Of a DNA stretch of 64,000 nt, positions 54,201 through 59,311 are shown piece after piece. The notes below the pieces were generated by a model. That model did not search any database. It saw only the letters and a list, made by a program, of their open reading frames with translations, and was not told the DNA's origin. The DNA lies in assembly GCA_025786725.1 (NCBI GenBank), contig JAHLTZ010000019.1:411083-475082 (forward strand), in the 5' to 3' direction. Both the position numbers and the translations under genes were made by a program. Source of the DNA: Syncephalis fuscata (taxonomy: Eukaryota > Zoopagomycota > Zoopagomycetes > Zoopagales > Piptocephalidaceae). Position 1 is the stretch's first letter. Every line of letters begins with the position of its first letter.

Positions 54201-54849
54201 GATTAGCAGCTTCATTTAGCGGATTATCGGCTGGTCGTACAATGGCTAGGTGTAATTCATCTGTTCGTTTAGCATAGCGTTTAAATTGTAAGGCAGATAA
54301 TGGCAATATGGTTGGTTGTCTATGTGCATTTGCTTGCCATACAATGTGTCGATTATCATGCATAAACGTAACAGTGTTAATTAACCAATCTATCTGTGGA
54401 TTATAGCGGGCTAGCCACGGTTTACCGAGTATTACGTCGTGTTCTAAAGGAACAACCAAAAACGATAACGGTCTTTGTAACCAGTGGAAGTAAGGAGCGC
54501 ACCAGCCAGTTGGCGGTCACACGTATACGAACGGCCATCTGCCACGTGTACGGTCGATGGGTATTTAACTTTATGGGTGTGTGCGCGAATATGTTTCACA
54601 AGATTTGCGGATACAAAGTTATCAGCTGCTCCACTATCTATTAGTACCGTAACTTTTCTACCTAATAAACGAGCATTGATACGTAATAAATCGTGAGCGT
54701 GTGGATATTTTGACAATAAACTTTGTTCCTTTAAAAGTGCATCAGTGTCATCAACAACATTAGCATGAGGAAATAATGGCGCAGAAACAAGCAATTCATC
54801 ATCAGAAGTAAGCGAGAGAAGATCGGGGTGGCATCAACAGAAATAGTAT
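51253..54849 (-). CDS. Family-1 pol: protease, RT, RNase H, integrase, chromodomain
   Basis: The long open frame 54459-51253 (1,068 codons) covers RT onward; the protease lies in another frame just upstream (54794-54444), separated by a one-base break at a T run near 54457. Visible motifs: protease LIDSGAADN (about 54640); RT with [10 protein letters not shown]; RNase [14 protein letters not shown]; the integrase HHCC finger ending CDTCQRNK; the DDE core with [18 protein letters not shown] and [12 protein letters not shown]; and a C-terminal chromodomain [18 protein letters not shown]. The chromodomain classes it as a chromovirus, which may steer integration toward modified histones. Enzymatic motifs are all intact, so the element may be young. 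Confidence 0.92.
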
Positions 54850-56064
54850 TTAGTTGGGCACCAGTAGGTTGTGATGCTGACACTACTGGTGCTGGACTTT
54901 TCCCGTATTCAAAGGACAAAAACGCATGATGTGGCCATATTGGCGACAGCGGAAACAGCCGCCGTTTTGTCGTAACGTTTCGCGTTCAGCATCAGTGAGT
55001 GGGGTAACCGATTAATGGTGTCTAGTTCCATTGGTATAGGGCCATTTCTTGGTTGTGTGTTAATCGGAGGGCGAAACTGTTGTTGTTGCGTTGGACGAGG
55101 TGTGTTATGGCGAACGTTGTTAGTTGCTGATTTGCCAATGTACTTGCGTAACGAATCAAAATGAGTAGCCACTTCTATGGCTGATTGTAATGTAGACGGT
55201 GTAGCTTTTTGTACTTCGTATTTAACTTCGTGATTCAGTCCATTAATAAACATAATACGTAAAGCTAACTGCCACATTTCGGAATCAGGCATAGGAAAAG
55301 TGTGCTTAAATTGTTAAATTCTAACGTATAATCATTGACACTTTTGTTGGCTTGTCGTAACATGTGAAGACGACTAAAAGCGTCTTCTTCTACCGAAGTA
55401 CCGGGACAGATGTGTTGGCGTAGTGCGTGAGCAAACGACTCCAAGTGGTATATGGATGACTATAGTCACCGTCAGAGTGAATAGTATTACTCTGCCACCA
55501 ACTAGAGGCAGTGCCATCTAAATAAGTGGCGGCTACTTCGATGCGTTCAATTTCATCAGGGATATACCTGACATATTGCCGTGCACGGTACAACCAAGTC
55601 TCTACTGAAATATCCTTATCATTGCCGTTGTATCGTGGCGGGGCAGATGGACGAGCAGTAGGAGGGGCAGTGACAGAAGTAGATGGAATAGCGGCAATAG
55701 CAGCGGCAGTATTGGCAGCGGCAGTAACAACAGCATCGGCAGTAGCAGCATTATTTTGGGACACAATTTGCGTTACAAACTTGAAATAAAGTCAGCGTTG
55801 GTAACGAAACTTGTGTTAGGCAATTCTGGGTTCATAATGGGTGTTATTTCTTCTTGAGTATCAGTAGTGTATTCGTTCGTGTGGCTTGTGATCGGTTCGT
55901 AGGTTCGGTATTCGTGTGGCTTGTGATCGGTGGTTCGTACTGGTTATCTGGGTTCGAAAGGTTACTGGTGGATCTTGGATGAGTTCGTCGGCGAAAGATT
56001 GACGGGCTTGTTCGTGGTCGAAGTATTTCGCACCACGTCGTTGGTTCATATCACTGTAAGTCAA
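54850..56064 (-). CDS. Family-1 gag with CCHC zinc knuckle (frame-broken)
   Basis: Starting near 56064 (MTYSDMNQRRGAKYFDHEQA), gag continues through a Thr/Ala/Pro-rich segment, a capsid-like part (VETWLYRARQYVRYIPDEIE, WWQSN) and FINGLNHEVKYEVQ. It ends in a zinc knuckle CFRCRQYGHIMRFC at about 54961-54920. The parts lie in different frames, with single-base breaks near 55800-55850, 55390-55290 and 54990. Whether it is translated as one polyprotein with pol cannot be told because of these breaks. Confidence 0.75.
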
Positions 56065-56106
56065 GGCAACGAGGTGGATAGGTTTAAACTACCCGTTGCT
56101 ACCATA

Positions 56107-56439
56107 TGTAACCGTAGATACAGCGAACTGTTGCGGTTACTACGAGTCACAATACAATAATGTATATAAAATAAAATGAATATTGAAAGTGAACTAATGT
56201 CTTTATTTGTGTCATAATATACGCGTATTTATATTGTTCTATTGATATATGGAATATCTAAGTAGAACAATCAAAAGAAAATAAAATAAAATAAAAGAAA
56301 ATAAAAGATAAAGATAAAACAATACGCGGTGGCGGAGTGTTAACTTCATCGTGGACCATGTGTGATGATCGGTGTGTTTAAACACCGATCATAATGTCTA
56401 AAATGGTAATAATAAATGAGAGGGAGAATTTTTGTTACA
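56107..56439 (-). repeat. 5' LTR of family-1 Gypsy element (333 bp)
   Basis: Same sequence as the 3' LTR, five bases shorter overall through single-base differences at A, G and C positions and no substitution. The right edge at 56439 is the exact point at which the family-2 pol reading frame stops. Confidence 0.95.
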
Positions 56440-58164
56440 ATAATTCTTTTCGGCTGCCTGTAATATACGTGACATAAATGCAACAGGATGTTCATTATTA
56501 TCGGTTATTTGTGATAATACTGCACCAATTGCATAATCAGATGCATCTGTAGTAACGATAAATGGTGCATTAACATTTGGTATAACCAATACCGGTGCTG
56601 TAACTATCGCATTACGTAGTGTGTCAAATGCTGTTATTTTGATTATCTCCCATGTGAATGGCTCATCATTCTTAGTCAATTGACTTAAATGCCGTGCAGT
56701 ATCAGCATATCCACGAATAAACCGTCTATAATAGCCAGTTAATCCGAGGAAAGAGCGCAGTTCTTTCAGATTGTTTGGTATAGGCCAATTTGCAATAGCC
56801 ATTACTTTATCGTGTAGTGGTCTTATACCCTCGCCACTAACAATATGTCCCAAAAATTCCACCTCATCTTTACCAAATTCACATTTGCTTAATTTGGCAT
56901 ATAATTTGTTTTCTCTTAGTAATTGTAACACTTGCCGTAAGTGCCACTCATGTTCGGTATGATTTTTACTAAATATTAAAATATCATCCAAAAATACCAC
57001 TACACACTTGTCTAGTAATTTATGAAATACATTATGCATTAATCGCATAAATACTGACGGTGCATTAGTCAATCCAAATCCCATCACCGTCCACTCATAA
57101 TGCCCATAGCGCGTTCTAAACGCTGTTTTGTGAATATCATCCTCATTTACTCTTATTTGATGATATCCACTTCTCAAATCTATTTTTGAGAATACTTTCG
57201 CCCCATGTAACTGATCGAATAATTCATCGATCAGTGGCAACGCATAACGATCACGAATTGTTTGTGCGTTTAACATTCTGTAATCCACACACATACGTAA
57301 ATCACCTCCTTTCTTCCGCACAAATAGTACAGGTGCACCAAATGGTGATGTACTAGGCCTAATAAAGCCTTTTTCTAACAAATCATCGATCTGTTTCTTC
57401 AACTCGTCTAACTCTTTCTTTGCCAGATGGTATGTAGGCCGAAATGGTGGCTGCTGATGTGGCACCAAATTGATACGTATATCAATGTCTCTTTTTGGTG
57501 GTAAACCAGGTGGTAATTCTTCTGGTCCAACATCGGCAAATTCACCCAACAATCGCGCGTAACGGCCATTTAACGATGTATCATTTTTTTCTTTGTTTTC
57601 TTTTATCATCGCTAATAAAATCATATCATTGGCTTCTGTTTGCTCGACTTCTTCTATTGACATGAATGAAGGCTGAATTTTGTCGGTAATTTCTAATGTA
57701 CTTTTGGGTGCTGAATTACAATTAGAATTAATAACACCGGTCTTCCAATCTACTTGCGCTTCATGTTTTCTTAGCCATGGCATACCCAGCACTGCATTAT
57801 AGTTGCCCAATTTCATAATAGTAAAATCAATTTGTTCTTTCAGATAATTGAAAATAATAGGCACTTTATTAGCAGTACCAGATACACCGCACTCCATACC
57901 ATTTCCCAACTTTACATTGGCTGAATTTGCTTGTTTCGTAACATGTACTTGAGCCCTCTTGGCAAATTCAATATCCATAAAGTTGGTGGATGCACCAGAA
58001 TCGATTAATACATGGGCTGGAACACCATTGATTTTGAGTGCTACTGTAATTAAACCGGAGCTAGCGCGACCTTGAATGAGTGTAGACTGCTCAAATCCGG
58101 GTGGTATCGGAGTATTAGCGGCAACCTGGCCGTCAGTAAGTGTGCCGCACTTAATTACTGACGG
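56440..58164 (-). CDS. Family-2 pol: protease and RT, truncated in RNase H
   Basis: The pol frame is -1 relative to gag and is open through the gag stop. Protease motif [11 protein letters not shown] (about 57990), [12 protein letters not shown], then RT with [31 protein letters not shown] and the active-site [11 protein letters not shown]. The beginning of RNase H ([15 protein letters not shown]) is present; the frame is lost at the junction with the family-1 LTR. No chromodomain or integrase remains. Translation is expected by -1 frameshifting at 58176-58170. Confidence 0.88.
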
Positions 58165-58176
58165 TTGTCGTTTCCC
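58130..58176 (-). promoter_or_regulatory. Predicted -1 programmed ribosomal frameshift signal (gag-pol)
   Basis: Reading minus: slippery heptamer GGGAAAC at 58176-58170, in the exact frame CAG-GGA-AAC of gag (X XXY YYZ). Then a 5-nt spacer (GACAA), a perfect 10-bp stem CCGTCAGTAA (58164-58155) with TTACTGACGG (58139-58130) and a 15-nt loop. A -1 slip leads directly into the pol frame ([15 protein letters not shown]). The gag stop is within the first stem arm. The arrangement matches known retroviral and retrotransposon signals; function is inferred. Confidence 0.8.
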
Positions 58177-59018
58177 TGAATTACGTTGTTGTTTGCTTGG
58201 ACGTCGACATTTGTTGATTGTAAATCTAAGCTGTTAGATTGCTGTTGATTGTTGTTATCGCGGTTATTGTAATTACGGTTGTTATTGCGATTACAATTTC
58301 TGGCTAGATGGCCACGTTTGTTACATGTGTAACATCTAGGCCCGTTATTGTAATTTTTACGGTTATTGTAATTACTGCTGTTGCTATTATTAATAAAACC
58401 TAAACTATTTAAAGCTTGGACTATAGTATCTAAATCCATTGGTGTTGGGCCGTTATTAGATTTAGTTGGTGGTGGTATTAAGTGTTGTAATCCATGTTTC
58501 CTTGAGTAATAGAAAGCACGTGTGGAAGCGTAAGCTTCGTTGATATTGGTGGGTTTATTATGTATCGAATCGGTTAAGTATTCCGGCGGCAATGTAAGTC
58601 GAAATGCCGTAACCAATTCCATGTCAGCGGCATCTGGAATTCGACTACGCAGTGCTGTGAAATTTGTAATATGTTCTTCAATGTCTTTATCTTCTGTCCA
58701 GCGCAATCGTGTGAGTTCCAAACGCGCGATGTCCGCTGATCGATTGCCACCAAAACGTTCTAAAATTCCGTCCCTTAGTTGTTCCCACGTGCTATATGGC
58801 GTATTACCGCCGCGTATCGATTGATACCAAACTGCCGCTGGTCCCGATAGTTGTTGGGACGCCATTATACGTTTTTGTTCGTCTGTAAATGTACCCAATT
58901 CCCATGCGTCTTCTACCATGTTACACCAATGTTCCACAGGCAAACTGGAATCACCGGTGAACTTTTCGGTGTGTGTGAGTGGTGAGCGGGAATTCGGTGA
59001 GAATAAAATCGGTCTCAA
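58155..59018 (-). CDS. Family-2 gag with CCHC zinc knuckle
   Basis: 287 residues, open throughout. It has a Gypsy capsid ([64 protein letters not shown]) and a zinc knuckle [14 protein letters not shown] within an Asn-rich tail. The stop TAA (58157-58155) lies inside a hairpin that forms part of a frameshift signal. ATG choice: first in the frame downstream of the leader repeats. Confidence 0.9.
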
Positions 59019-59108
59019 CGTGTACTATATACTGAATCGTAATTTTAAAACAGCGGTGCTTATTTTCAAACACTGATAAGCAAAAATAAAATAAAATTGA
59101 AAAGAGGA

Positions 59109-59287
59109 CAATGCGACAAACGCGATATACGGTGCGACAAACGCAAAATAACGGTGCGACAAACGCAAAATAAACGGTGCGACAAACGCAAAAATAAACG
59201 GTGCGACAAACGCAAAAATAACGGTGCGACAAACGCAAAATAAACGGTGCGACAAACGCAAAAATAACGGTGCGACAAACGCAAATA
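59109..59287 (-). repeat. Tandem repeat of ~22-24 bp in the family-2 leader
   Basis: Eight units of about GGTGCGACAAACGCAAAATAAC, the first degenerate. Units differ almost only in the length of A runs (AAAAT/AAAAAT, TAAC/TAAAC). It lies between the primer-binding site and gag. It could be part of the packaging or translation leader. Confidence 0.9.
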
Positions 59288-59311
59288 CTAGTAACTACCC
59301 GTTGCTACCAA

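Follow-up and report, generated by a model that had tools for sequence, protein, structure and literature searches.

Frameshifting in both directions is known among fungal retrotransposons, with a 2003 survey recounted in a later paper finding -1 as well as +1 elements (PMC5009743). Chromoviruses of the Tf1/sushi group outside fission yeasts are predominantly -1 in a 2023 comparison, the set of which includes grasshopper, MAGGY, Cgret and skippy, with -1 stated singly for grasshopper; the comparison also names self-priming as a feature that members of the group share (PMC10085805). Gypsy elements of Verticillium also carry pol in the -1 frame (PMC3441728), while Ty3 of S. cerevisiae, the same general type of element, has pol in +1 and uses a mechanistically distinct shift (PMC7175516, PMC5009743). 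The mammalian gene PEG10, which originates from a sushi-ichi-like Ty3/Gypsy element (PMC5009743, PMC10570562), combines the heptamer GGGAAAC, a 5-nt spacer and a downstream pseudoknot with a -1 shift into a protease motif (PMC2800197). On mammalian ribosomes, few heptamers shift as readily as G_GGA_AAC (PMC5009743).

The 64,000-nucleotide stretch of Syncephalis fuscata DNA analyzed here (the window) contains, on its minus strand, a gag-pol junction of a fungal chromodomain Ty3/Gypsy family (family A) that we interpret, with a probability of about 0.9, as a programmed -1 ribosomal frameshift site. The gag frame, whose product matches Retrotrans_gag (a capsid-like domain) and a CCHC knuckle, ends CAG GGA AAC GAC AAC CGT CAG TAA. 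It overlaps by 79 nt with pol, which lies in -1 and matches aspartyl protease, reverse transcriptase and RNase H. A scan for XXXYYYZ reveals a single heptamer in this overlap, and it is in gag phase, giving the canonical eukaryotic arrangement of X_XXY_YYZ in the zero frame within an overlap with the -1 frame. The 10-bp stem that follows 5 nt past the heptamer covaries between families and is the predicted stimulator. The first-pass annotation had read the heptamer (CAG-GGA-AAC, 58176-58170) correctly base for base; its 5-nt spacer, perfect 10-bp stem, 15-nt loop and enclosed gag stop are all exact, and a pol in -1 leading into protease agrees with the open frames and the aspartyl protease match. 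Stop-codon readthrough was rejected, as pol is not in the gag frame.

Table 1 Features of the family A and family C gag-pol junctions in the window
Feature	Position	Strand	Remark
Slippery heptamer G_GGA_AAC, family A	58170..58176	-	in gag phase
Spacer GACAA, family A	58165..58169	-	5 nt, read 58169-58165
Stem 1 5' arm CCGTCAGTAA, family A	58155..58164	-	10 nt; holds CAG and gag stop TAA (58155-58157)
Stem 1 loop, family A	58140..58154	-	15 nt
Stem 1 3' arm TTACTGACGG, family A	58130..58139	-	perfect complement of CCGTCAGTAA
Stem 2 5' strand GCGGCA, family A	58143..58148	-	proposed pseudoknot
Stem 2 3' strand TGCCGC, family A	58118..58123	-	proposed pseudoknot
gag open frame, family A ("family 2")	58155..59024	-	stop to stop, 289 codons
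pol open frame, family A	56398..58233	-	-1 to gag; protease, reverse transcriptase, RNase H start
Protease within pol frame, family A	about 58041-57769	-	pol residues 65-155
Heptamer G_GGA_AAA, family C ("family 1")	54898..54904	-	
Stem 1 5' arm, family C	54883..54892	-	holds gag stop TAG; 10-bp stem
Stem 1 3' arm, family C	54858..54867	-	
Stem 2 5' strand GCATCA, family C	54872..54877	-	
Stem 2 3' strand TGATGC, family C	54831..54836	-	

In the proposed mechanism, ribosomes translating gag would arrive at G_GGA_AAC and be made to pause by the folded RNA 5 nt downstream (the 10-bp stem 1, probably pseudoknotted). The P- and A-site tRNAs would then slip by one base, from GGA-AAC to GGG-AAA. A minority of ribosomes would bypass the stem-embedded gag stop and produce Gag-Pol from protease onward, and the majority would terminate at that stop to yield Gag. 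Phase, spacing, stem, frame, recurrence and stem 1 covariation are direct observations; we infer the occurrence of slippage and its efficiency.

Chance was assessed by scanning both strands of the window for heptamers of the form XXXYYYZ (Y = A or T, Z not G) with a stem within 4-9 nt. Two of the 219 heptamers precede a stem of at least 10 bp, at 58176 (family A) and 54904 (family C), and both are gag-pol junctions; among the remainder, one is followed by a 9-bp stem and two by an 8-bp stem. In 20,000 dinucleotide shuffles of the family A junction, an in-phase heptamer appears in the overlap in 6.1%, and a heptamer with a stem of at least 9 bp in 0.005%. These values bear out the earlier statement that the agreement of the elements is unlikely by chance. 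The nested fold of the 52-nt family A segment is by itself unexceptional (z of -1.59; 15 of 200 shuffles fold as well), and z is likewise modest in family B (-1.31), as opposed to -3.46 and -3.36 in families C and D.

A search of the source genome (28.95 Mb in 299 contigs, window included) identified at least 16 copies of the family A junction within 3 mismatches. This genome also has chitin synthase matches, which are absent from 14 control genomes, as fits a fungus. The heptamer is kept in all 16 copies found, and 13 agree at every position of the 59-nt signal, which starts with the heptamer and runs through the proposed stem 2. The three deviating copies have lost one base from the stem region (C259) or carry a single stem mismatch each (C297 and C226), and in each of the three the gag or pol frame is broken; in C226, stem 2 by eye has one pair with both sides altered and another that is disrupted. 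Eight of the 16 copies, including that in the window, have an identical 289-residue gag frame, and several have one fused pol end in common, so we rejected counting the copies as 16 independent witnesses.

The family A copy in the window is a defective relic, since its gag frame has no start codon before the capsid homology and its pol is truncated where it enters, inside RNase H, sequence shared with the family-1 LTR. A gag start codon is found at four other loci (C267, C124, C168, and C50), and copies with open gag and pol frames are present elsewhere in the genome; the signal would act in these rather than in the window relic. Between the primer-binding site and the family A gag (window 59112-59285), a 23-nt unit is repeated in tandem in 7.7 copies, and the length of the open frame through this array varies between family A copies. 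Families A and C are also found near each other, either on short contigs or towards the ends of contigs (C10, C13, C50, C98, C101, C188, C189, C191, C192, and C259), several with identical defects. This clustering suggests duplicated blocks, perhaps subtelomeric; neither TTAGGG nor CCCTAA was found in the last 3 kb of the window.

The same layout recurs in three other Gypsy families of the genome, whose pol proteins are approximately 52% (B), approximately 45% (C, the other family in the window), and 42% and 58% (the two pieces of D) identical to that of family A. All tested loci of A, B, C, and D, one or two copies in each family, show G_GGA_AAM, 12 nt from heptamer to gag stop, CAG before the stop, the stop within the 5' arm of a stem, and pol in -1. 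The pattern GGGAAAM-N9-CAGTRR occurs at 36 sites genome-wide, against 3 for the pattern read backwards. Judged by place and letters, all 36 are gag-pol junctions, 16 in A, 3 in B, 16 in C, and 1 in D. Pol is -1 to gag in A, B, C, D, and E, and a Ty3-like +1 shift was therefore rejected for all five. In family C, reverse transcriptase through Chromo lies in one frame.

To compare stem 1 between families, we aligned seven rows (three from A, one from B, two from C, and one from D). Sixty-six of the 70 cells pair (94.3%), leaving four unpaired, and none of 500 shuffles pairs as well; the covariation score and the number of two-sided cells are likewise reached by none of 500. Two-sided changes fall at six of the 10 pairs (12 of 500 shuffles reach this), while the measure of further pair types stays within the shuffled range, with 457 of 500 shuffles at least equal to it. 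When the arms are slid against each other, pairing is never above 59%. The shuffle significance is overstated because the seven rows come from related families. On this alignment, stem 1 is conserved by compensatory change across families A-D. Together with the heptamer in 16 of 16 family A copies, this outcome supports the first-pass call of a -1 frameshift signal, for which conservation of the stem with compensatory changes among other copies had been named as a check.

Decay offers another account, in which the arrangement is chance or decayed sequence, functionless in every copy. The window copy without gag start and with truncated pol fits such a history, as does the single D locus with its broken gag frame; the family C copy in the window (signal at 54831-54904) has broken gag and pol frames as well. 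Against this account, the arrangement recurs in four families and shows compensatory changes there, some copies retain open gag and pol frames, and gag relatives on other contigs bear a footprint of it; we consider chance or decay very improbable. A spliced mRNA joining the gag and pol frames, with the hairpin incidental, is conceivable in a eukaryotic host. Splicing does not predict the heptamer phase, the constant spacing or the covarying stem, however, and we regard it as the least probable of the explanations weighed.

The length of the gag/pol overlap varies between families (79 nt in A, 31 in B, 103 in C, and 28 in D), and the overlaps of B and D mean that a shift there must occur within about 30 nt. 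The gag stop is close to the protease coding region, which would suit a pol made without frameshifting, by ribosomes that re-initiate or initiate internally past the gag stop, and in D, E1, and E2 a pol-frame Met does lie ahead of the protease motif. In A, B, and C, however, no pol-frame Met precedes the protease active-site motif, and re-initiation would lose that motif because the first such Met lies beyond it; we thus rejected re-initiation as the main route in A-C. It also leaves the heptamer, the 12-nt distance and the covarying stem unexplained, and overall we give it very little credence beside -1 frameshifting.

Further Gypsy elements of the genome differ in their junctions. Family E, with five junctions (L078-L081 and L086) and pol about 34-37% identical and in -1, has its gag stop directly after GGAAAAC, a non-canonical slip sequence, followed by a 9-bp stem. 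Two two-sided changes separate the E1 and E2 stems, a number reached by 116 of 500 shuffles with two rows, and the family E loop pairs with downstream sequence as well. Pol is in -1 also in family F (L082) and in the C245/C254 elements (L084 and L085); just before the gag stop (L082:541-560; L084:483-504; L085:474-495), the letters GGATTTT are seen in L082 and L084. No usable gag-pol junction was found in L083 or L087. In C113, C65, and C267 (300-304 kb), a single open frame, of 1507, 1471, and 1496 codons respectively, covers both the gag and the pol matches. The presence of both -1 junctions and single-frame gag-pol elements indicates that several expression strategies coexist in this genome.

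The structure after the spacer had been described as a 10-bp stem with a 15-nt loop. The stem stands; pairing of its loop with downstream sequence makes a pseudoknot more probable than a plain hairpin. Searching each family's loop against the 30 nt after its stem 1 yielded 6-bp pairings in A (GCGGCA/TGCCGC; single-family chance 0.019), C (GCATCA/TGATGC; 0.093, unremarkable alone) and D (CAACGG/CCGTTG; 0.003). Family B shows a weak pairing of four contiguous base pairs (chance 0.22), or by eye seven with one bulge. At least three of four families reach a stem 2 of at least 6 bp in 0.00035 of shuffles, and the summed stem 2 length over four families is reached in 0.003. Own loop/downstream pairings rank first of 120 permutations (A, B, C, D, and E2). 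Cross-pairings match the own score in 4 of 10 cases for B and 1 of 10 for C, and in none for A, D, E1, and E2; a reversed-loop control equals the own score in B and falls below it in the other families. The stem 2 sequences are unrelated between A, C, D, and E1/E2. We infer that the hairpin is probably one half of an H-type pseudoknot, in which 58148-58143 would pair with 58123-58118.

The same -1 slip could instead be stimulated by a plain hairpin, the complementarity between loop and downstream sequence being incidental. Stem 1 is strong alone and covaries, and stem 2 is weak in B. In family A, a competing nested extension within the loop uses one base of the stem 2 strand, and loop 3 is only 6 nt across the 10-bp stem 1. 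Such a loop is tight for an H-type knot spanning 10 bp. Against a plain hairpin stand the finding of a stem 2 in A, C, D, and E1/E2, each built from a sequence unrelated to the others, and the permutation rank and joint chance values given above. We consider a plain hairpin somewhat unlikely and favor the pseudoknot. In a reporter, readthrough was not supported by the pseudoknot predicted for the gag-pol junction of Tca2 (PMC7175516). None of the titles, abstract openings and passages searched, a body of text that left out most subscription papers, describes a pseudoknot where a fungal Ty3/Gypsy element has a -1 gag-pol junction.

Protein databases were also searched with gag queries, the profile search scoring the best 7995 candidates. 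Among the matches listed are 14 distinct proteins, 12 of which end in G-[K/N]-xxx-Q (P0001, P0002, and P0004-P0013), the encoded product expected of GGA-AAM, 9 nt, CAG, and stop; P0003 and P0014 have other C-termini. These footprint proteins are not independent, because 11 of the 12, P0001 among them, are mutually related, with 61-67% identity to P0001 in those for which a value is given. The protein ends are consistent with a putative heptamer and stem in the corresponding genes. Among pol relatives, none was found in a viral contig collection; of two scans of genome collections, the first found none and the second two loci (L088 and L089). No junction DNA from outside the source genome could be compared, because L088 stops short of the matched element's gag-pol junction and L089 matches within one open frame of 1522 codons. 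Both are records labeled as bacterial MAGs containing Ty3/Gypsy pol sequence, probably through eukaryotic contamination.

Chromoviruses are defined by the order PR-RT-RH-IN with a C-terminal chromodomain. In family A, PR, RT, and RH are present in the window, and IN, SH3_Tf2-1, and Chromo end the pol of C124, a copy with open gag and pol frames. We thus place family A among the chromoviruses and make no claim of Tf1/sushi membership. Families A and C have in common a PBS-like sequence, TGGTAGCAACGGGTAGTT (window 56092-56104 and 59298-59310, minus strand), for which no tRNA gene with a 15-nt match was found. The longest exact upstream complement of this sequence that might act as a self-primer is 6 nt in family A (588 nt searched, LTR ends unmapped) and 5 nt in family C (333 nt searched). 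Retroviral gag-pro signals, for example those of type D simian retroviruses, combine G_GGA_AAC with a pseudoknot. With their heptamer, short spacer and pseudoknot they would work like the family A signal, in a different class of element.

Fungal Tf1/sushi chromoviruses resemble family A as fungal chromodomain Gypsy elements with -1 shifting, but are described as self-priming (PMC10085805), whereas for A and C the upstream sequence searched yielded no self-primer. With Tf1/sushi elements outside fission yeasts being predominantly -1 (PMC10085805), a -1 signal is what one would expect of a fungal chromovirus. The first-pass annotation had thought -1 noteworthy since Ty3 uses +1, a view that is not supported given how common -1 is in fungal chromoviruses (PMC10085805) and its occurrence in Verticillium Gypsy elements (PMC3441728). 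PEG10 and family A have in common GGGAAAC, the 5-nt spacer, a downstream pseudoknot (probable in A) and the -1 shift into a protease motif (PMC2800197), although PEG10 is a domesticated single gene.

Taken together, these results point to a real signal with good comparative support and a mechanism ordinary in kind. That fungal chromoviruses shift -1 between gag and pol was already known. What is added is a probable pseudoknot, a module common to several families, a protein-end footprint in outside relatives, and the recognition that the window copy is a relic; the earlier annotation had mentioned neither the complementarity between the loop and 58123-58118, nor the similar signal at 54904, nor that this copy is defective. 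A prediction made by eye has become a comparatively supported recoding signal. One ancestral module, consisting of G_GGA_AAM, the 12-nt distance and a CAG-stop within the first stem of a pseudoknot, may have persisted throughout fungal chromoviruses even as its stems changed in sequence, with the GGGAAAC-pseudoknot of PEG10 descended from that module rather than convergent, a speculative proposal that we consider doubtful. The probable pseudoknot, for which four to five families within a single fungal genome show naturally occurring compensatory variants, provides a natural series that could be used to ask which features of a stimulator the eukaryotic ribosome requires, and whether the PEG10 signal is inherited.
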